From assembly GCF_900109545.1 (NCBI RefSeq), contig NZ_FOAP01000034.1, positions 1 to 64,000 on the forward strand: DNA of 64,000 nt, read 5' to 3'. Every line of letters begins with the position of its first letter. Within the stretch, counting starts at the first letter, position 1. Made by a program: the position numbers and the translations under genes. The notes under the pieces are model-generated. The model did not search any database. It worked only from the letters and a program-made list of their open reading frames with translations, and was not told the DNA's origin. This DNA comes from Stigmatella aurantiaca. Its GTDB lineage: Bacteria > Myxococcota > Myxococcia > Myxococcales > Myxococcaceae. Positions 3,919-13,564 of the stretch are shown in pieces.

Positions 3919-5133
3919 CTAGCCCGCGAGCAACTCTTCGCGGGCTGTCACCTCGGCGGGGACGAGGGCGGGGCTGCTGGGGACGGCCGCTGTGGCCAGC
4001 CGGGTGCCCGGAAGCACGTGGAGCCGTGTCCCGCGCCACTGGACCGTCCGGCTGAACAGGCCATTGAACCACGCCACGAAGAGCAGCGCGTCCTTGAGGA
4101 AGACGACCGGCAGCGCGCCCCAGGAGACCGGCTCCGGGCGCAGGAGGCGGAACACCGCGACATCGAGCAGGGCCTTCAGGCAAGCCACCGCTCCGGCCAT
4201 GGAAAGGGTCTCCGGGGAGGGGGCGAGCAAGGCGGCGAGCAGGGCCAGGGGGGCCGGGTTGAGCAGGCCCTGGGCCAGGTACGTGGGCGTGGACACGGAC
4301 ATGTGGTGGATGACGCTCCAGCGCAGGTACCGCTTGAAGAAGTCCCCCACACGCTTGCGCAGCGAGACATTGAAGACCGGCGTCCGGGCGACCACCACGC
4401 GTTTGCCCAGCTTGCGGGTGATCCACAGGCCGATGACAAAGTCCTCCGCAAGCACGTCCTTGACGGAGAAGAAGCCTCCCAGCGCCTCCACGTCCTCCCG
4501 CCGCAAGGCCATGGACTTGCCCACCACGATGTCCTTGCCCGCCAGGTGCTTGGCGGTAATCACCCCGGCCGCCGCGCTGGAGGCCAGGTGCAGGTTGTCC
4601 ATCAACGAGCCCACGGTCCGCTCACCGACGCCCGCGATGGGGTGCGTGACGCAGCCGGTGTCCAGGTCCTCGAACCCGTCCGCGATCTCCTGCAGGTACC
4701 CCGGGGACACGCGCACGTTCGAGTCGCTGATGACCCAGAGGTCATACCGGGCCTCCGCGGAGAGCGTGATGAGCTGGTTCACCTTGGGGTTGAGGCCGGG
4801 CTCGCCTTCCTGGAGCGCCAGCTTCATCACGTGAGGCCAGCGCGCGACGGCCGCCCGGGCCAGCGCATAGGCGGGGTCTGTCCGGTCCTTCACCCCGAGG
4901 ATGACCTCGTACCGGGGGTAGTCCAGCGTGGCGAACTGCTCCAGGTTGGCCTCCAGGTCATCGTCCACGCCGCACAGCGGCTTGAGGATGGAGATGCCCG
5001 GGGAGGCGGTGGCCGCACGGGGCAGGGCCTGGTGGGAGCGGGGCCGGTGGCGCAGGACGAAGAGGAACTGCACGGCCAAGGCGAGCAGTCCCAGGGCGGC
5101 GGCGGAGAACAGCAGCAGGGAGGCAACGGGCAT
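3919..5133 (-). CDS. GT21 ceramide glucosyltransferase-like enzyme
   Basis: A membrane glycosyltransferase of family GT21 (ceramide glucosyltransferase/HpnI type), 404 residues from the ATG at 5133. The open frame continues 42 codons upstream, but this start places the membrane anchor (residues 4-28) at the N-terminus. GT-A motifs are present: DDD (57-59), SDSN (136-139), the ED pair (230-231) and R..RW (268-272), the pattern of processive-type GT2/GT21 enzymes. Two or three hydrophobic segments follow in the C-terminal third. Family knowledge predicts transfer of glucose from UDP-glucose to a lipid such as ceramide; myxobacteria make sphingolipids. It lies 137 bp downstream of phoU on the same strand, so it may share phosphate control. 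The acceptor is not shown by sequence. Confidence 0.8.
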   Translation of the reverse strand: MPVASLLLFSAAALGLLALAVQFLFVLRHRPRSHQALPRAATASPGISILKPLCGVDDDLEANLEQFATLDYPRYEVILGVKDRTDPAYALARAAVARWPHVMKLALQEGEPGLNPKVNQLITLSAEARYDLWVISDSNVRVSPGYLQEIADGFEDLDTGCVTHPIAGVGERTVGSLMDNLHLASSAAAGVITAKHLAGKDIVVGKSMALRREDVEALGGFFSVKDVLAEDFVIGLWITRKLGKRVVVARTPVFNVSLRKRVGDFFKRYLRWSVIHHMSVSTPTYLAQGLLNPAPLALLAALLAPSPETLSMAGAVACLKALLDVAVFRLLRPEPVSWGALPVVFLKDALLFVAWFNGLFSRTVQWRGTRLHVLPGTRLATAAVPSSPALVPAEVTAREELLAG

Positions 5134-5270
5134 GCGTGGTTTCCGGAGCGGCACGCGGTCATCGCGCGACCTGCCCCGAACGCTAGAAGAGCCCGGCGAC
5201 AGCCCCGCGACCTGCTCGCGGCGGCCGCGGAAAAACGGGGTGACGGCGGTGTGTCGCACCGCCGCCGCCG

Positions 5271-5960
5271 CTACTCCATGGTCAGGTTCCGGCTCAGCGG
5301 GTGGCGGATGTCCTTGCCACGCACCATGTAGACGACCATCTCCGCCACGTTCAGCGCGTGGTCGCCGATGCGCTCCAGGTGCTTGGCGATGAACATCAGC
5401 GCCGTGGCCCGCCGGATGTTCCTCGAGTCCTCCATCATGTAGGCGAGCAGCTCGTTGAAGATCTTCAGGAAGAGGGCATCCAGCAGGTCATCGCCCCGCA
5501 GCACTTCCTCCGCCTTGGCCACGTCGTTGGAGACGAAGGCATCCAGCGCCTTCTTCACCTGCTGCTGGGCGAGCTCCGCCAGCTTCGGCGTGTCCACGTA
5601 GGGTGCCAGGGGCGGCACCTGGTTCAGGTCATTGGCCCGCTCGGCGATGTTCACCGCCAGGTCGCCAATGCGCTCCAGGTCGGTGACGATCTTCAGAGCC
5701 GTGGTGATGAGCCGCAGATCGCTCGCCGCGGGCTGGCGCAAGGCCAGGATGCGGCGGCAGAGATCGTCGATCTCCACCTCCAGCCGGTTCACGTCCTTGT
5801 CGGACTGGATGACCTTCTCGGCCAGCACGGAGTCCCGCTCGGTGAGGGCCCGCACGCTGCCCGCGATGAGCGCCTCGACCTTGGCCCCCATGGCCAGCAG
5901 CCGCTCGCGCAAATCCCGCAGGTCCTGCTCAAACGCTTTGTCGGTATGGGTCGCCGGCAT
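5271..5960 (-). CDS. phoU: Phosphate regulatory protein PhoU
   Basis: A 229-residue all-helical PhoU, about the usual length. The two tandem three-helix repeats each carry the metal-site signature, seen as LERIGDLAVNIAE in the first half and LERIGDHALNVAE in the second. PhoU couples the PstSCAB transporter to PhoR and silences the Pho response when phosphate is plentiful. It is the last gene of the pstS-C-A-B-phoU run, 15 bp after pstB, and starts at ATG. No anomalies are seen. Confidence 0.97.
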   Translation of the reverse strand: MPATHTDKAFEQDLRDLRERLLAMGAKVEALIAGSVRALTERDSVLAEKVIQSDKDVNRLEVEIDDLCRRILALRQPAASDLRLITTALKIVTDLERIGDLAVNIAERANDLNQVPPLAPYVDTPKLAELAQQQVKKALDAFVSNDVAKAEEVLRGDDLLDALFLKIFNELLAYMMEDSRNIRRATALMFIAKHLERIGDHALNVAEMVVYMVRGKDIRHPLSRNLTME

Positions 5961-5975: not shown

Positions 5976-6752
5976 CTACCCGAACTTCCCGGTGACGTAG
6001 TCCTCGGTGCGCTTCTCGCGCGGGTTCGTGAAAATCTGCTCCGTCGGGCCGCATTCCACCAACTCACCCATGTAGAAGAAAGCGGTCCGGTCGCTGACCC
6101 GGGCCGCCTGCTGCATGTTGTGGGTGACGATGGCGATCGTGTACGTGGCCTTCAGGAGGTAGATGAGCTCTTCGATCTTCGCGGTGGCGATGGGGTCCAG
6201 GGCGCTGGCCGGCTCGTCCATGAGGAGCACCTCGGGCTCCACCGCCAGGGCGCGCGCGATGCACAGGCGCTGCTGCTGGCCGCCCGACAACCCCAGGGCG
6301 CTGTCCTCGAGCCGGTCCTTCACCTCGTCCCAGAGCGCCGCGCTCCGGAGGGACTTCTCCACCCGCGCGGCCAGGTCCGCCTTGTTCTTCAGCCCGCCCA
6401 CCCGCAGGCCGTAGGCCACGTTCTCGAAGATGGACTTGGGGAAGGGGTTCGATTTCTGGAACACCATGCCCACGCGGCGGCGCAGGTCCACCACGTCCAC
6501 GTTCCGGTCGTGGATGCTCGTGCCATCCAGCAGGATGGTGCCGGTGTGGTGCGTGTGGGGGATGAGATCATTCATCCGGTTGAGCGAGCGCAGGAAGGTG
6601 GACTTGCCACACCCCGAGGGGCCAATCATCGCCGTCACCTGGTGCTCGGGGATGGTGAGGCTCACCTCGCGGATGGCCACCTTGGCGCCATAGCGGAGGG
6701 TCAGGGCCCGCGCCTCCATCTTGATGCGCGGGCTGTTCGGCTGGAAGGTCAT
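5976..6752 (-). CDS. pstB: Phosphate ABC transporter ATPase PstB
   Basis: The ATPase of the high-affinity phosphate importer, 258 residues. Walker A is GPSGCGKST, the ABC signature is LSGGQQQRL, and Walker B is VLLMDEP followed by the D-loop SALD. The switch histidine is in VTHNM. It would act on the cytoplasmic face with PstC and PstA. ATG at 6752 is used; an internal ATG eleven codons on (before EARALTL) is possible. It lies 10 bp after pstA. Confidence 0.97.
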
Positions 6753-6762
6753 GAACGGCGTC

Positions 6763-7674
6763 TCAGTGGGCGTTCGCGGCGCGCCGGCGGGTCCGGGTCC
6801 GGATGACGACCGCGACGAGGTTGAGGGCGAAGGTGAGCATCAGCAGCACCAGCACCGTGGCGTAGAGCAGCGGGCGGGTGGCCTCGATGTCGGGGGACTG
6901 CGTGGCGAGCACGTACGTGTGGTAGCCCAGGTGCATGAACTGGGAGTTCAGCGACGTGGGCAGGTCCGGCAGGAAGTAAGCCGCGCCCGTGAAGAGGATG
7001 GGGGCCACCTCGCCGGCGCCGCGGGACACCGCCAGCACCGCCCCCGTCAGGATGCCCGGCAGCGCGCCCGGCAGCACCACCCGCATGAGCGTCTGGGACT
7101 GGGTGGCGCCCAGGGCGAGGCTCGCGGTGCGGTGGTCCAGGGGCACCGCGCGCAGGGCCTCTTCCGTGGAGACGATGACCACGGGCAGCGTCAGCACCGC
7201 CAGGGTGAGCGAGGCCCAGAGGATGCTCGGCTGGGCCCAGTGCATGGTCTGGTAGCCCAGCGCGCGGTCCATGCCGCCGCCGATGAAGTGGATGAAGAAG
7301 CCCAGGCCGAACAGGCCGAAGACGATGGAGGGCACCCCCGCCAGGTTGACGATCGCCACCCGCACCCAGCGCGCCAGCCGCGAGTCCGGTGAGGCGTACT
7401 CGTGCAGGTAGACCGCGGTGAGCACGCCCACGGGCATCACCGCCAGGGTCATCAGCAGGGTCAGCGCCGCCGTGCCGTAGAGGGCCGGGAAGATGCCTCC
7501 GCGCATCATGCCGTCGGAGGGAGGCTGGGAGAGGAACTCCCAGGTGACGTGGCCCGCACCCCCGCGGAGGACATCCAGGAGGATGAGGGCGAGCATGGCC
7601 ACGATGAGCAGCGCGGCCAGGCCCGTGAGGGAGGTGAGGGCGGCCCCCACCGTGCGGCGAGTGGCGTGCTTCAC
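6763..7674 (-). CDS. pstA: Phosphate ABC transporter permease PstA
   Basis: Inner-membrane permease of the phosphate importer, 303 residues from GTG at 7674. The GTG overlaps the pstC stop as GTGA, which argues for translational coupling and against the longer open frame that runs upstream inside pstC. About six hydrophobic segments are seen, together with the family's cytoplasmic coupling loop (EALRAVP, then ASLALGAT). Its partners are PstC, PstB and PstS. Confidence 0.95.
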
Positions 7675-8705
7675 GAGGCGCCCCCGGTGAGCCGCTTGAG
7701 GACGCGCTTCGTCCAGGCGGAGGCCACCATGTTCAGGATGAAGGTGAAGACGAACAGCTCCACGCCGATGAAGAACAGCAGCGAGTAGTGGGGACTGCCG
7801 ACCACCACCTCGCCCATCTCCGCCGCGATGGTCGCCGACAGCGAGCGGACCGAGTCTCCCAGGTTCGCCGAGACGATGGCCGCGTTGCCCGAGGCCATCA
7901 GGATGATCATCGTCTCGCCGATGGCGCGGCCGAAGCCCAGCACGCACGCGGCGAGGATGCCGGGGGCCGCGGCGGGCAGCACCACCTTCCAGGCGGTCTC
8001 CCAGGGGGTGGCGCCCAGGGCCAGGGAGGCCTCCCGGTAGCTACGGGGCACCGCCGTGAGCGCATCCTCGGCCACGGTGAAGATGACGGGCACGATGGCC
8101 AGCGCCAGCCCCAGGCCCGCCACCACCGCGTTGAGCCGGTAGGTGAAGCCGAAGGTGTCCTGGAGGAAGGTGGCCAGCACCATCAGCGCGAAGAAGCCGA
8201 GCACCACCGAGGGGATGCCCGCCAGCAGCTCGATGATGGGCTTGAGGAACTCCCGCAACCTGCGGGGGGCGAACTCCGCGGCGAACAGCGCACCGGCCAC
8301 ACCCAGCGGCACCGCCACCAGCATGGAGACGAGCGTCGTCTTCAGCGTGCCGATGAAGAGCGGAATCATGCTCACCTTCGGCACCGAGGACACCGGCTGC
8401 CAGGTGAAGGTCGCGGGCCTCCCTGCACGGGCCACCTGGGGCAGGAACATCTTGGCGGGGCTCGCCTCCTGCTGGGCGTGGGCGTCCGTGAAGAGCGCCA
8501 GCGCCTCCTTCGCGACGAAGACGATGATCAACACCAGCGCGGCGATGCCGGTGAAGGCCATGAGGGTGATGAAGCCCGCGATGGCTTTTTCCCGGAGTTG
8601 CCGCCGCCGGGCCGTCGGCGACAACTGCGGGACCACGACGGTTTCCGCGAGACTCTGCTGCATGAGGGCCTCTCTATCCATCTGTGCCGGAGCCTCGCGT
8701 GACAA
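7671..8705 (-). CDS. pstC: Phosphate ABC transporter permease PstC
   Basis: The second permease of the Pst importer, 344 residues. An N-terminal cytoplasmic segment of about 40 residues precedes the first membrane helix. Residues about 75-120 form a periplasmic insertion, then five further hydrophobic segments follow. The coupling-loop motif ([19 protein letters not shown]) is clear. ATG at 8705 is used; ATGs at codons 9 and 15 are alternatives. It lies 14 bp after pstS and overlaps pstA by 4 bp. Confidence 0.95.
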   Translation of the reverse strand: MSREAPAQMDREALMQQSLAETVVVPQLSPTARRRQLREKAIAGFITLMAFTGIAALVLIIVFVAKEALALFTDAHAQQEASPAKMFLPQVARAGRPATFTWQPVSSVPKVSMIPLFIGTLKTTLVSMLVAVPLGVAGALFAAEFAPRRLREFLKPIIELLAGIPSVVLGFFALMVLATFLQDTFGFTYRLNAVVAGLGLALAIVPVIFTVAEDALTAVPRSYREASLALGATPWETAWKVVLPAAAPGILAACVLGFGRAIGETMIILMASGNAAIVSANLGDSVRSLSATIAAEMGEVVVGSPHYSLLFFIGVELFVFTFILNMVASAWTKRVLKRLTGGAS

Positions 8706-8719
8706 TCGTGTGACGGTGC

Positions 8720-9541
8720 CTACTTCACCGGGAAGTAGCCGACTTTGTTGACGATCTGCTGGCCCTCGGGGGACAGGGCGAAGTCGATGAAGGACTTCAC
8801 CTCACCGGTAGGCTTGGTGCGCAGGTAGAAGTACAGGTCGCGCGAGAGCGGGTACTTGCCGCTCTTGATGTTCTCGGCGGAGGGGGCGATCTCCTCGGTG
8901 CCCACCTTGACCTTCAGCTCCTTGATGCCCTTGGCGTAGGCCGCGCCGCCGTAGCCGATGCCGTTCTTCTCCTTGGTGATGGCGTTGACCACCGCGGCGG
9001 TGCCGGGCAGCGTCTGCGCCTCGGGGGCGTAGTCCTCGCCGTTGAGCAGGTTGTCCTTCACGAAAACGTACGTGCCGGAGGAGTTCTCGCGCGAGTAGAG
9101 GACGATGGGGGCATTGGCGCCGCCCACGTCCTTCCAGTTGGTGATGTCGCCCAGGTAGATGCCCTTGAGCTGCTCGACCGTGAGGGCGTTGAGCGGGTTC
9201 TTCTCGTGCACGTAGAAGGTGACGCCGTCCTTGGCGACGGAGATCTGCTCGGCGGGGGCCTTGGCCTGGGCCCGCACCTTCTCGTTCTCCGCGTCCTTGA
9301 TGGGACGGCTGGACATGGCGATGTCCGTGGTGCCGTTGATGAGGGCCGCCAGGCCCGTGCCCGAGCCTCCGCCGGTGACCTGGATCTTGGTGGAGGTGTT
9401 CTTCTTCATGAACTCCTCGGCCCAGCGCTGGCCCAGGATGACCATGGTGTCCGAGCCCTTGACGGAGAGGGTGCCTGCCTGGGCCGCGGCGGGAAGAACG
9501 AACGGGAGGAGGACGAGCAGCGACGCGAGGAACTTCTTCAT
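8720..9541 (-). CDS. pstS: Phosphate-binding protein PstS
   Basis: Periplasmic phosphate-binding protein, 273 residues. A Sec signal peptide (Lys-Lys, hydrophobic core, cleavage near AQA at 20-22) leads directly to GSDTM, the phosphate-binding start of the mature family. Later ligand-loop motifs are SGTG (a GGGSGTG turn), SSRPI and ENSSGTY. No lipobox cysteine is present, so it is soluble periplasmic. It is the first gene of the pst operon, with a Pho-box-like repeat 81-98 bp upstream. Confidence 0.96.
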   Translation of the reverse strand: MKKFLASLLVLLPFVLPAAAQAGTLSVKGSDTMVILGQRWAEEFMKKNTSTKIQVTGGGSGTGLAALINGTTDIAMSSRPIKDAENEKVRAQAKAPAEQISVAKDGVTFYVHEKNPLNALTVEQLKGIYLGDITNWKDVGGANAPIVLYSRENSSGTYVFVKDNLLNGEDYAPEAQTLPGTAAVVNAITKEKNGIGYGGAAYAKGIKELKVKVGTEEIAPSAENIKSGKYPLSRDLYFYLRTKPTGEVKSFIDFALSPEGQQIVNKVGYFPVK

Positions 9542-9605: not shown

Positions 9606-9639
9606 GTTTCACGACGTGAAGGTGACAAATGGGTGACGG
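9606..9639 (-). promoter_or_regulatory. Pho box and promoter of pstSCAB-phoU
   Basis: Minus strand 9639-9622 reads CCGTCAC-CCAT-TTGTCAC: two 7-bp repeats with a 4-bp spacer, the geometry and core (GTCA) of PhoB boxes. Ten bases further, 9611-9606 reads TGAAAC, a weak -10 at the spacing known for phoA-type promoters. It lies just past the stop of the upstream PhoB-like regulator gene and 81 bp before pstS. Confidence 0.75.
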
Positions 9640-9640
9640 C

Positions 9641-10330
9641 TCAGGCGAGCTGGGGGTCCACGATGCGGTAGCCGACCCCCCGGACGGTCTCCAGGTACGG
9701 GCGCGCCGGGCCGAGCTTGTCGCGCAGCCGCATCACGTGGGTGTCGATGGTGCGCGTCTCCAGGCTGCTGGACAGGCCCCAGACCTCCTCCAGGAGCTGC
9801 TCGCGGGTCTGCACGCGGCCCAGCCGCGTCATCATGTACTCCAGGAGCCGGAACTCGAGCGCCGTGAGGAGCACCTCCTTGCCCTCCACGTAGAAGCGGT
9901 GGGTGCTCACATCGAGCTTGAGCGGCCCCAGCGCGAGGGGGGCCGTGCCTTCCTTGGAGGGCAGGGCCCGGCGCAGGACGGCCTTGATGCGCAAGACCAG
10001 CTCCCGGACGCTGAAGGGCTTGGTGACGTAGTCATCCGCCCCTACCTCGAAGCCGCGCACCCGGTCGGCCTCCTCGCCCTTGGCGGTGAGCATGACGATG
10101 AGCACGTCACGGGTGAGCACGTTCGTGCGCAGCTGCCGGCACACCTCCGTGCCGGAGATGTCGGGCAGCATCAGGTCCAGCAGGACGAGCTGGGGGGGCT
10201 GTTCGCTGGCGGCGGCCAGGGCGGCCTCGCCCGTGCCCGCGACGCGGGTGGAAAATCCGGCTGCCTGGAGATTGAAGTCGATGAGCTCGGCGAGATCTCG
10301 CTCGTCATCGACGATGAGGACGTGGGACAT
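9641..10330 (-). CDS. PhoB/PhoP-like OmpR-family response regulator (second copy)
   Basis: A 229-residue receiver plus winged-helix regulator. The receiver has DDE (8-10), phosphoacceptor Asp52 in LLDLMLPD, and Lys in YVTKPF. The C-terminal OmpR/PhoB DNA-binding domain (about 130-225) has the recognition-helix pattern TRTIDTHVMRLRDKLG and ends VRGVGYR. ATG at 10330 matches the paralogue at 12796-13476 residue for residue at the start; a TTG four codons upstream is an alternative. It has no kinase of its own: the gene before it is a metallophosphoesterase. It immediately precedes the pst promoter, so it is probably a direct phosphate regulator. Closest in organisation to the orphan PhoP-type regulators known in Myxococcus, but that assignment is inference. 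Confidence 0.92.
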   Translation of the reverse strand: MSHVLIVDDERDLAELIDFNLQAAGFSTRVAGTGEAALAAASEQPPQLVLLDLMLPDISGTEVCRQLRTNVLTRDVLIVMLTAKGEEADRVRGFEVGADDYVTKPFSVRELVLRIKAVLRRALPSKEGTAPLALGPLKLDVSTHRFYVEGKEVLLTALEFRLLEYMMTRLGRVQTREQLLEEVWGLSSSLETRTIDTHVMRLRDKLGPARPYLETVRGVGYRIVDPQLA

Positions 10331-10367
10331 GGCACCGCGCAATCTCCACGTCCCCGCGGGCGCTTGC

Positions 10368-10412: not shown

Positions 10413-11414
10413 TCAGCCGTCGAGATCTGTCGTGCCAGTGGACAAGGAGGCCTCCTCCGCCGCCTCGATGTCCTGCACGGGGGGCAGCTCCACGGAGTCC
10501 AGCGCCTCCATGCGGAGCACGGCGGCCTCCGTCTCGTCCTGGCGGGGCACGGGCGGCTCTGTCTCCAGGTCCCCCGTGGGGGGCACGCCCGGAGGCGGGG
10601 GGCGCCGGGGCGGAGCCCCAGGGGGCGGCCGCAGCACGGGCCCCGGGGGCGGCAGGCCCGAGTGGCGGCGCGCCGCCTCGAGCAGGGAGTGGTGGTGGCG
10701 GTAGCGCGCCTCCACCAGCTTGTGGATGAGGATGGGGCCGCCGGGAACCCGGCGCGCGGTGAGCGCCTGGGTGGCCTTGCGGACGGGGTAGCGCACCCGG
10801 CGGATCTGCACGCGCCAGCCCTTGGGCGTGTAGGTGAAGATGCCGTAGGCGGGCCGCAGGTCGCCATCCCGGGGAATGCCCGCGCTGGCCACGTCCGCGA
10901 TGAGCATCCGGCCGACCCGGCGGCGGTAGGGGAAGTGCAGGTGGCCAAAGGCGCACGCCGCCGCGTCCAGGTGCATGAAGAAGCGGCGGATGGAGATTTC
11001 ATCGAGGGTCGGGTCCAGCGACTCCTCGAGGTTCTTCGGGTTCGCGTGGCAGACGAAGAGGTCCTGCCCCTTGCGCGGGGTGTAGCGCATGGAGAAGGGC
11101 AGGGCGCCCAGCGTCTTGAGGTGGGCCTCGCCCAGCTGGTCCCGCGTCCAGCGCAGCAGCTCGGTCTTCCAGTGGTCGCGCTCGCGGTAGGCGCCGCCCA
11201 GGTAGTTGCCCGCGAGGTAGCAGTCCGTGTTGCCCATCAGCACGGAGTCACAGCGGTCCAGCAAGAGCTCCACCGTCTCGCGCGGGTGGGCCCCGCGCAG
11301 CGCGAGGTCGCCCGCGGCCACGATGTAGTCGGGCGCCATCCGCTCGATGTCCTCGAGGACGGCCTCGCAGGCAGGGAGATTGCCGTGAATGTCCGCGAGG
11401 ATCGCGACCCGCAT
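10413..11414 (-). CDS. Calcineurin-like metallophosphoesterase
   Basis: A 333-residue cytoplasmic metallophosphoesterase of the YfcE/MJ0936-like group. All metal motifs are present in order: D.H in ADIHGN, GD in AAGDLA, GN.D in GNTD, H in VCHAN and GH.H in FGHLH. The catalytic domain covers about 1-255; the rest is a Pro/Arg-rich, then acidic, disordered tail unusual for the family. No signal peptide is present. It sits inside the phosphate locus, 12 bp after phoR and before the second phoB-like gene, so a role in phosphate release or signalling is plausible; the substrate is unknown. Confidence 0.85.
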   Translation of the reverse strand: MRVAILADIHGNLPACEAVLEDIERMAPDYIVAAGDLALRGAHPRETVELLLDRCDSVLMGNTDCYLAGNYLGGAYRERDHWKTELLRWTRDQLGEAHLKTLGALPFSMRYTPRKGQDLFVCHANPKNLEESLDPTLDEISIRRFFMHLDAAACAFGHLHFPYRRRVGRMLIADVASAGIPRDGDLRPAYGIFTYTPKGWRVQIRRVRYPVRKATQALTARRVPGGPILIHKLVEARYRHHHSLLEAARRHSGLPPPGPVLRPPPGAPPRRPPPPGVPPTGDLETEPPVPRQDETEAAVLRMEALDSVELPPVQDIEAAEEASLSTGTTDLDG

Positions 11415-11426
11415 GGTTACCCCATC

Positions 11427-12785
11427 CTACCCAGATGTGGCCTCCGAGGGGGTGGCTGGAAGAAAAATTACGAAAACACTGCCTACATTAGGGCGGCTTT
11501 CCACCTTCACCTCGCCGTCCATGGCCCCCAGGAGGTGCTTGACGATGGACAGGCCCAGGCCCGTACCGCCCATGTCCCGGCTGCGACCTTTGTCCACCCG
11601 GTAGAAGCGCTCGAAGATGCGCGACAGGTGCTTGGGCTCGATGCCCACCCCCGTGTCCTTCACGCGGACGACGCAGCGCCCGTTCTCCTGGCCTCCCGAC
11701 ACGTCCACCCGCCCGCCCGCCGGGGTGTACTTGACGGCGTTGTCGAGCAGGTTGAGGAGCACCTGCTCGATGGCCCGCTCGTCCGCGCGGGCCTTCAGGT
11801 CCGGGGACAGGTGCAGCTCCAGGTGGATGTTCTTGCCCTCGGCCTTGGGTTTGACCGTCTCCGCGGCGCGGGAGGCGGCGACGGCGAGGGACACGTCGGC
11901 GAACTTGAGCTTCATCTCGCGCGACTCGAGCCGGGACAGCTCCAGCAGGTCCTCGACGAGCTCCGAGAGGCGCTCGGACTGGCGGTGAATGATTTCCACC
12001 ATCTTGGGGGCCACGGCGGGGTCCTGCAGGGCCCCGGTCTGGAGCGTCTCCGCGTAGCCCCGGATGGCGGTGATGGGGGTGCGCAGCTCGTGGGAGACGT
12101 TGGCCACGAAGTCCTTGCGGACATTCTCCAGCCGGCGCAGCTCGGTGACGTCGTTGAAGACGGCGGCGCTGCCGGGCAAGTCCCGTCCCAGGGGCGTTAC
12201 CCGGATGGCGAGCGTGAGGGGAAAGAGCCCCTCCAGCGTCAGCTCCAGGCGGGACGAGGCGCCCTCCCGGCAGGCCCGGGCCACAGCGTCATTGAGGGCC
12301 TCGTCGCGGATGAGGGCCAGGGGGCGCTGGCCCACGATGGGCCCGTTGCCCGGCTGGAGCATCTCCCGCAGGGCGTCGTTGTGCCGGATGACGGTGCCCT
12401 CGGCATCGGTGATCCAGATGCCTTCGATCATGCCATCCAGCACGGCGGTGAGGGTGCGCGTCTCCTGGGTCCGCTGGACGTTCTGGGTGGTGAGCCGGGA
12501 GTGGAGCGAGTCGATCGCGCCCTCCAGGCTGGCCATCTCGTCCAGCCGCTCCGGGTCCGGCGGGGGACGGTGGGGGCTTCCCTCGGCGCGCTCCAGCGTC
12601 TTGCTCGCGAGGGCCTGGAGCTGCCGCTGGACCTGGTCGCGGTTGGCCACATGGGCCGCGATGGACCCGGCCAGGGTGACGAGGGCCGCGCCTACGGCGG
12701 TGCCAGGCTGGCCCAGGACCACGAGCAGCAGCATGACCACGGCCGCGGGCAACAGGAGGGAGAGGAGCACGGCGCGCAGGGTCAT
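11427..12785 (-). CDS. phoR: PhoR-like sensor histidine kinase
   Basis: A 452-residue membrane kinase. Two hydrophobic stretches (about 5-24 and 30-46) give a hairpin anchor with almost no periplasmic loop, as in PhoR. A linker of about 60 residues and a PAS domain (110-215) follow. The HisKA phosphorylation site is His232 in SHELRTP. The HATPase domain has NLLDNAVKYTP (N box), DTGVGIE (G1), FERFYR (F box) and GGTGLGLSIVK (G2). Order and spacing (10 bp after the phoB-like gene) and its place beside pst-phoU support a phosphate sensor coupled through PhoU. Myxobacteria carry several PhoR paralogues, so the number cannot be assigned. Confidence 0.9.
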   Translation of the reverse strand: MTLRAVLLSLLLPAAVVMLLLVVLGQPGTAVGAALVTLAGSIAAHVANRDQVQRQLQALASKTLERAEGSPHRPPPDPERLDEMASLEGAIDSLHSRLTTQNVQRTQETRTLTAVLDGMIEGIWITDAEGTVIRHNDALREMLQPGNGPIVGQRPLALIRDEALNDAVARACREGASSRLELTLEGLFPLTLAIRVTPLGRDLPGSAAVFNDVTELRRLENVRKDFVANVSHELRTPITAIRGYAETLQTGALQDPAVAPKMVEIIHRQSERLSELVEDLLELSRLESREMKLKFADVSLAVAASRAAETVKPKAEGKNIHLELHLSPDLKARADERAIEQVLLNLLDNAVKYTPAGGRVDVSGGQENGRCVVRVKDTGVGIEPKHLSRIFERFYRVDKGRSRDMGGTGLGLSIVKHLLGAMDGEVKVESRPNVGSVFVIFLPATPSEATSG

Positions 12786-12795
12786 GGCGGGCTCC

Positions 12796-13476
12796 TCAAG
12801 GAGGGTTGAGCTTGTAGCCCACGCCCCGGACCGTCTCGATGATGTCGCCCGCGGGGCCCAGCTTCTCGCGCAGGCGCTTGATGTGCGTGTCCACGGTGCG
12901 GGTGTGAATCTCCGCCTGGATGCCCCAGACGTCCGAGAGGAGGATCTCGCGCGTCTGCACCCGGCCGCCGCGCTCCAGCAGGGTGTGCAGCAGGCGGAAC
13001 TCCAGGGCGGTGAGGACCACTTCCTCGCCCTGGACGCGCACCTGGTGCCGCGAGGTGTCCAGCTGGATGTCCCCCGCAGTGAGCTGGGTGGCGGGCCCCT
13101 CCTCCGTGTCCGCCCGGCGCAGCACCGCCTTGACCCGGAGCATCAGCTCCCGGACGGAGAAGGGCTTCACCACATAGTCGTCCGCCCCCATCTCCAGCCC
13201 CTGGATGCGGTCGGCCTCCTGCCCCTTCGCGCTGACGATGACCACGGGGACGGCCCGCAGCCCGGGGTCATTCTTCAGCATCCGGAGCACCTCGTGGCCC
13301 GAGATGTCCGGGAGCATCAGGTCCAGGAGCACGAGGTCTGGCAGCCGGGCGCGGCTCTTGGCGAGCCCCCCGGCGCCGGTGTTCGCCGTCTCCGGGTCGA
13401 AGCCTGCGGCCCGGAGGTTGTATTCGATGAGTCCGGCGAGGTCCTGCTCGTCTTCGATGATCAGGATTCGCGCCAT
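12796..13476 (-). CDS. phoB: PhoB-like OmpR-family response regulator
   Basis: A 226-residue receiver plus winged helix. Receiver residues are ED (8-9), Asp52 in LLDLMLPD and Lys in YVVKPF. The effector domain ends TRTVDTHIKRLREKLG and VRGVGYKL, typical PhoB. The open frame extends 70 codons upstream through the Pho box, so ATG at 13476 with GGAG seven bases before it is chosen. It is the first gene of the regulator-kinase pair and the presumed cognate of the PhoR-like kinase. Predicted autoregulation: a strong Pho-box-like repeat lies 71-88 bp upstream. Confidence 0.93.
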   Translation of the reverse strand: MARILIIEDEQDLAGLIEYNLRAAGFDPETANTGAGGLAKSRARLPDLVLLDLMLPDISGHEVLRMLKNDPGLRAVPVVIVSAKGQEADRIQGLEMGADDYVVKPFSVRELMLRVKAVLRRADTEEGPATQLTAGDIQLDTSRHQVRVQGEEVVLTALEFRLLHTLLERGGRVQTREILLSDVWGIQAEIHTRTVDTHIKRLREKLGPAGDIIETVRGVGYKLNPP

Positions 13477-13530: not shown

Positions 13531-13564
13531 ACTAGCAGATCCAATTGTGACAGCGATGTGAAAG
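13531..13564 (-). promoter_or_regulatory. Pho box and -10 of phoB-phoR
   Basis: Minus strand 13564-13547 reads CTTTCAC-ATCG-CTGTCAC, nearly the textbook Pho box (two 7-bp repeats, 4-bp spacer). After ten bases comes GCTAGT (13536-13531), matching the position and last four bases of the phoA -10 TATAGT. This is the best Pho-box candidate in the window and predicts activation by phosphorylated PhoB. Confidence 0.8.

Follow-up and report, generated by a model that had tools for sequence, protein, structure and literature searches.

The glycosyltransferase gene that follows phoU at the end of a phosphate-transport cluster in Stigmatella aurantiaca raises three questions: what kind of enzyme it encodes, whether its expression is tied to phosphate, and which lipid would receive the sugar. 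These were investigated in the window, the whole stretch of 64,000 nucleotides analyzed here, and by comparison with related loci and genomes. The features identified are collected in Table 1.

Table 1. Genes and putative regulatory elements of the pho cluster in the window
Feature	Position	Strand	Basis
GT21-type membrane glycosyltransferase, 404 aa, D-D-D-RxxRW motifs	3919..5133	-	PF13506, 26qf alignment, residue conservation, AlphaFold2 model
Promoter (-10)-like element TCTAGCGT	5180..5187	-	Spacing to box
Hairpin (12 bp, 5-nt loop) and T5 run directly behind phoU, overlapping box	5231..5269	-	z -3.2
Candidate Pho box before GT21, CGACACACCGCCGTCAC, one mismatch in first half-site	5240..5256	-	PWM
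phoU	5271..5960	-	TIGR02135, 232.8 bits
pstB	5976..6752	-	TIGR00972, 405.7 bits
pstA	6763..7725	-	TIGR00974, 246.1 bits
pstC	7671..8705	-	TIGR02138, 242.9 bits
Candidate Pho box before pstC, GTCACACGATTGTCAC	8699..8714	-	Kept between pstS and pstC in relatives
pstS	8720..9541	-	TIGR02136, 254.8 bits
Candidate Pho box before pstS, GTCACCCATTTGTCAC	9622..9637	-	Direct-repeat match
phoB-type response regulator	9641..10342	-	Response_reg and Trans_reg_C; TIGR02154, 258 bits, below cut-off of 296
Calcineurin-like phosphoesterase within pho cluster	10413..11414	-	PF12850/PF00149
phoR/pnpS-type sensor kinase	11427..12785	-	NF046044, 391 bits against cut-off of 400
First cluster gene, second PhoB/OmpR-type regulator (start codon inferred)	12796..13476	-	Response_reg and Trans_reg_C
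Candidate Pho box at cluster head, before first regulator, TTCACATCGCTGTCAC	13547..13562	-	Direct-repeat match

A GT21 gene linked to phoU

The open reading frame behind phoU is a real gene. Its product matched the Pfam GT21 family (PF13506) at 148.8 bits (cut-off 21.7), is 94% identical to its counterpart in a sister genome, and was the single GT21 match at E<=1e-5 in its own genome of 9.37 Mb. The closest named relatives of the locus are myxobacteria, for example Hyalangium. All motifs of GT21 membership are present, namely D1 (VKDRTD), D2 (ISDSN), D3 (LAEDF) and (Q/R)xxRW (RYLRW), and residues D86, D137, D231, R268, R271 and W272 are invariant among 15 relatives. The best sequence match to a solved structure was ceramide glucosyltransferase 26qf (E 1.1e-29). 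The AlphaFold2 model (mean pLDDT 87) consists of an N-terminal helix, a GT-A-like domain and C-terminal membrane-type helices, and has a processive-synthase fold whose nearest solved counterparts are hyaluronan synthase, an archaeal mannosyltransferase and cellulose synthase; ceramide glucosyltransferase structures (26qf) were not among the matches in a library extending to April 2026. What the fold search indicates for the model is only the wider hyaluronan/cellulose-synthase fold. The original prediction of a glycolipid glucosyltransferase was borne out as to the GT21 family by the motifs and PF13506, while the sequence does not justify a term as narrow as "glucosyl". Among the 66 GT21-like proteins of a tree, the pho-linked enzymes of the Myxococcota were separate from the hpnK-linked HpnI proteins and also from a group made up of alphaproteobacterial GT21 enzymes and the human enzyme, and they thus represent a third GT21 branch.

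The cluster reads on the minus strand as regulator, phoR-type kinase, calcineurin-like phosphoesterase, phoB-type regulator, pstS, pstC, pstA, pstB, phoU and GT21. PhoU, PstB, PstA, PstC and PstS passed their NCBIfam cut-offs, and the PhoB- and PhoR-like proteins gave strong scores, yet under the equivalog cut-offs. There are two OmpR/PhoB-type regulators against one PhoR-type kinase, and the phosphoesterase sits between the two regulators. The 137-bp distance from the end of phoU, at 5271, to GT21 on the same strand was confirmed.

In 21 of 30 related loci phoU is the gene directly upstream of GT21, at a distance of about 90-205 bp, and an order kept to this extent shows that the adjacency is not due to chance. 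In three loci of Anaeromyxobacter phoU is 0.7-3.6 kb upstream of GT21, and in one of these an alkaline phosphatase gene intervenes. A second survey comprised 60 GT21 loci spread over the Myxococcota, several of which overlap the first 30, so that the two counts are not independent; here 21/60 have phoU no more than 4 kb upstream in the same orientation, and in five more loci other phosphate genes adjoin GT21 in a different order. These five are phoB-phoR-phosphoesterase-GT21 facing phoU-pstB (L105), phoB-GT21 (L117), phosphoesterase-GT21 (L099), a phosphate-selective porin, identified by Pfam, divergent from GT21 (L091; likewise L022), and GT21 behind alkaline phosphatase (L118; likewise L115). 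Such rearranged orders belong to the more distant Myxococcota. That pho neighbors are retained despite rearrangement argues more strongly for a functional connection than synteny by itself would. One record titled Comamonas sp. KCTC 72670 (L018, BNCN01000006.1) carries a Myxococcus-like pho cluster and a GT21 with 70% identity to the window enzyme; it is probably mislabelled or contaminated.

Regulatory signals in the phoU-GT21 gap

The phoU-GT21 gap contains an 11-bp direct repeat of the Pho-box type, (G/T)T(C/T)AC-N6-GTCAC, which recurs before the first regulator, pstS and pstC, giving four sites in the cluster. In relatives a candidate box likewise precedes pstS and pstC. Alignment of the intergenic sequences of 21 relatives revealed divergence everywhere apart from the direct repeat, there (G/T)TCAC-N6-GTCAC, and a CTAGNGT-like element, and the distance between these two is 52-53 nt in nearly all genomes scored, that of L016 being taken from the intergenic alignment and L021 not fitting; the constancy was counted among related genomes, which are not independent evidence for each.

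A position weight matrix (PWM) was built from the pho-cluster sites with the GT21 sites excluded. With this matrix the box in the window ranked 7 of 127,968 positions (shuffle p 0.004), and a best site in the GT21 gap was obtained in 22/22 genomes, each with shuffle p<=0.006, although the match of L021 is weak. Exact copies of the box number 36 genome-wide (9.4 Mb), against 17 for a reversed control pattern, and three of the 36 lie upstream of this cluster's first regulator, pstS and pstC. In the 60-locus survey a perfect box was present upstream of GT21 in 17/60, compared to 2.9% of random segments. The excess is found mainly in GT21 homologs above about 55% identity; for proteins below about 55% identity it is hardly more frequent than background, though some of these genes are still pho-linked. 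One further perfect box in the window's genome (L067, C19:102348-102363) lies about 80 bp before a gene for a Ppx/GppA-type exopolyphosphatase, and in Archangium a second box-like repeat occurs between GT21 and a phosphoesterase gene (L016 7212, L019 7247, L021 7250). A sigma-54 site in the phoU-GT21 gap was rejected by eye, as spacing and GG element do not fit, and a scan for sigma-70 promoters gave no matches, such a scan being uninformative at this GC content.

Two peculiarities of the window concern this gap. The first half-site of the box reads GACAC and not (G/T)TCAC, the three nearest sisters being perfect, and the box is overlapped by a hairpin with a T5 run which is possibly an intrinsic terminator of the pst transcript. 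The standard terminator scan reported none on the GT21 strand; it permits almost no gap before the T-run and so missed the hairpin. On account of the mismatch and the overlap, phosphate control in this strain could be weaker than in its relatives.

That GT21 is merely the last gene of the pst transcript, with no promoter of its own and with a terminator or attenuator as the reason for the conserved gap, has in its favor the common strand, the lack of any gene between phoU and GT21, and the strong hairpin with T5 in the window. The hairpin, however, reaches significance solely in the window and its closest sister (L082) and therefore does not explain the conservation of the gap; on the same grounds a conserved terminator was rejected as an alternative to a DNA box. 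What is conserved is the direct repeat and the CTAGNGT element. A perfect box also precedes GT21 genes which are not behind phoU: in L023 and L028 it occurs without phoU placed upstream, and in L022 it is read from the other strand, in the interval separating porin and GT21. With promoter-like signals conserved in the gap, cotranscription as the sole explanation was rejected, and this reading of GT21 appears quite improbable. The preferred reading is that GT21 belongs to the Pho regulon and has a promoter of its own. Phosphate control, which the original prediction had made conditional on cotranscription with phoU, finds good support in the comparative evidence, but by way of a Pho-type box belonging to GT21 itself and not of simple cotranscription.

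Putative reaction, lipid acceptor and phosphoesterase partner

The best explanation of these observations is that the GT21 enzyme would act in the inner membrane at low phosphate, transferring sugar from a nucleotide sugar onto a membrane lipid, so that a phosphorus-free glycolipid would replace phospholipid. Control would fall to the PhoR/PhoB-type system encoded in the cluster, its regulator being postulated to activate the promoter of GT21 after binding to the 11-bp direct repeat between phoU and GT21; read-through from pstSCAB-phoU may contribute to expression. Taken as a whole this explanation is considered probable. The identity of the gene, its conserved linkage, the conserved box and the constant spacing from box to promoter-like element are established; PhoB binding, induction, enzymatic activity and the nature of the acceptor are predicted from gene content and sequence. 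The myxobacterium and its relatives probably resort to sugar lipids once phosphate is exhausted.

The product is most likely a glycosyl-diacylglycerol or its ether analog. Glycosyl-ceramide is possible, and ceramide is the main rival to diacylglycerol (DAG) or an ether analog, which is more likely as the acceptor. A serine palmitoyltransferase gene was identified in the window's genome (C2:480522-481688), followed by genes for a GNAT acyltransferase and an NAD-dependent epimerase/reductase. This trio matches the ceramide gene set spt, bcerS, cerR (PMC11087976), and ceramide is therefore probably available in the host. The sphingolipid-making bacterium of the original prediction is thus plausible; its ceramide acceptor fared less well. 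Glycosylation of ceramide at low phosphate, as by Caulobacter Sgt1/Sgt2 but with a GT21 enzyme, would agree with that gene set and with ceramide glucosyltransferase being the best sequence match in the PDB. It is opposed by ten genomes (>=90% complete) which possess a GT21 ortholog, defined by >=300 bits, and in which no strong match to serine palmitoyltransferase was found at the threshold used. In addition, the tree groups the human enzyme, albeit on a long branch, with alphaproteobacterial GT21 and not with this clade, the genome-wide exact search revealed no Pho box in the vicinity of the operon for serine palmitoyltransferase, and between DAG and ceramide Agrobacterium Pgt has a preference for DAG (PMC3972451). 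Ceramide as the acceptor at low phosphate is accordingly judged unlikely.

A still different function would be that of HpnI, which transfers GlcNAc onto bacteriohopanetetrol, in which case the position beside phoU would be unrelated to lipid replacement. The HpnI model TIGR03472 was indeed the only full-length NCBIfam match, at 243.8 bits, but this is 66 bits short of the cut-off of 310, no HpnH over cut-off was found in the genome, and the sole cyclase match fell under the hopene cyclase cut-off. Moreover, the hpnK-linked HpnI proteins constitute a separate, fully supported clade, to which two Myxococcota from the same order belong (L136, L137). Membership of HpnI was rejected based upon the score and the separate clade; a true HpnI is unlikely, and this account of the locus as a whole is highly improbable. 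The cyclase in question (L032, C11:141058-142995) scored 279.9 bits against the hopene cyclase cut-off of 431.1 and is perhaps a sterol-type or other triterpene cyclase.

In most relatives the gene after GT21 encodes an Icc/Rv0805-like phosphoesterase (e.g., L002 7291-8127; L025 7566-8399), and it adjoins GT21 also in loci without pst/phoU. In Myxococcus it is not beside GT21, and the window's genome has lost it altogether. Its best PDB matches were Rv0805/Icc, and its best NCBIfam match was an anti-phage phosphoesterase (DS9), far below cut-off. Identification as a PlcP ortholog was rejected, the similarity being marginal (best E 6e-4, partial), though the protein may be a functional analog which frees DAG. 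A tentative and rather doubtful extension is that the Myxococcota have a lipid-remodelling module of their own, in which a separate Pho-boxed GT21 clade would be joined, in most relatives, by an Icc-like phosphoesterase freeing diacylglycerol in place of PlcP, the pair travelling together even without adjacent pst/phoU. An LpxH-like protein, read as PlcP-type, precedes GT21 in Pannonibacter and Gemmobacter, and the Icc-like phosphoesterase is not clearly related to it. Alphaproteobacterial plasmids show such a phosphoesterase immediately before a GT21 that bears the annotation "ceramide glucosyltransferase" (L076 2027-4068, L077 2126-4047); the two genes more likely form a pair for lipid remodelling.

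Comparison with known systems

A link between phosphate and glycolipid synthesis of this kind, which had been supposed to be undescribed, has precedents in other bacteria, so that the supposition is wrong in general. The GT21 enzyme Pgt of Agrobacterium tumefaciens and Mesorhizobium loti forms glycosyl-DAG under phosphate deprivation (PMC3972451, PMC8231724), and in Caulobacter Sgt1/Sgt2 glycosylate ceramide under PhoB control (PMC6445935). For myxobacteria no report on low-phosphate lipids was found in the literature, and the phosphate-stress glycolipid strategy, known elsewhere, is as far as found unreported for them. The present locus would extend the phosphate-driven exchange of phospholipid for glycolipid to the soil phylum Myxococcota and offers an enzyme and a promoter as concrete candidates. 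With the putative Pho box of myxobacteria the whole phosphate regulon could be mapped, and as ceramides are probably also made, the choice of backbone under phosphate stress becomes testable.

The pairs of PlcP and a glycosyltransferase (PMC8231724), of which L076 and L077 are GT21 examples, likewise have a calcineurin-superfamily phosphoesterase beside a glycolipid glycosyltransferase, but the myxobacterial partner is Icc/Rv0805-like, with marginal similarity to the LpxH-like PlcP type, and the window's genome has no partner. HpnI (TIGR03472, bacteriohopanetetrol GlcNAc transferase) is the nearest named bacterial protein model, distinguished from the window enzyme by cut-off, clade and HpnH as set out above. 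With Sgt1/Sgt2 the locus would share PhoB-regulated glycolipid formation in a bacterium that probably makes ceramides; the Caulobacter pair, however, was picked as putative GT4 and works as two enzymes in sequence, whereas the window enzyme is of GT21. Pgt has in common with it the GT21 family and a predicted Pho box, the latter evident here by comparison with relatives and carrying one mismatch in the window; glycolipid synthesis under phosphate deprivation is established for Pgt and proposed for the window enzyme. The branch of the window enzyme is distinct from the alphaproteobacterial GT21 sampled in the tree, which were unannotated rhizobial and PlcP-linked proteins, and location in a pst-phoU cluster is not described for Pgt (PMC3972451, PMC8231724). 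New in relation to these systems are the phylum, the separate GT21 branch, the position of the gene as the last of a pst-phoU cluster and the Pho box proposed for myxobacteria.
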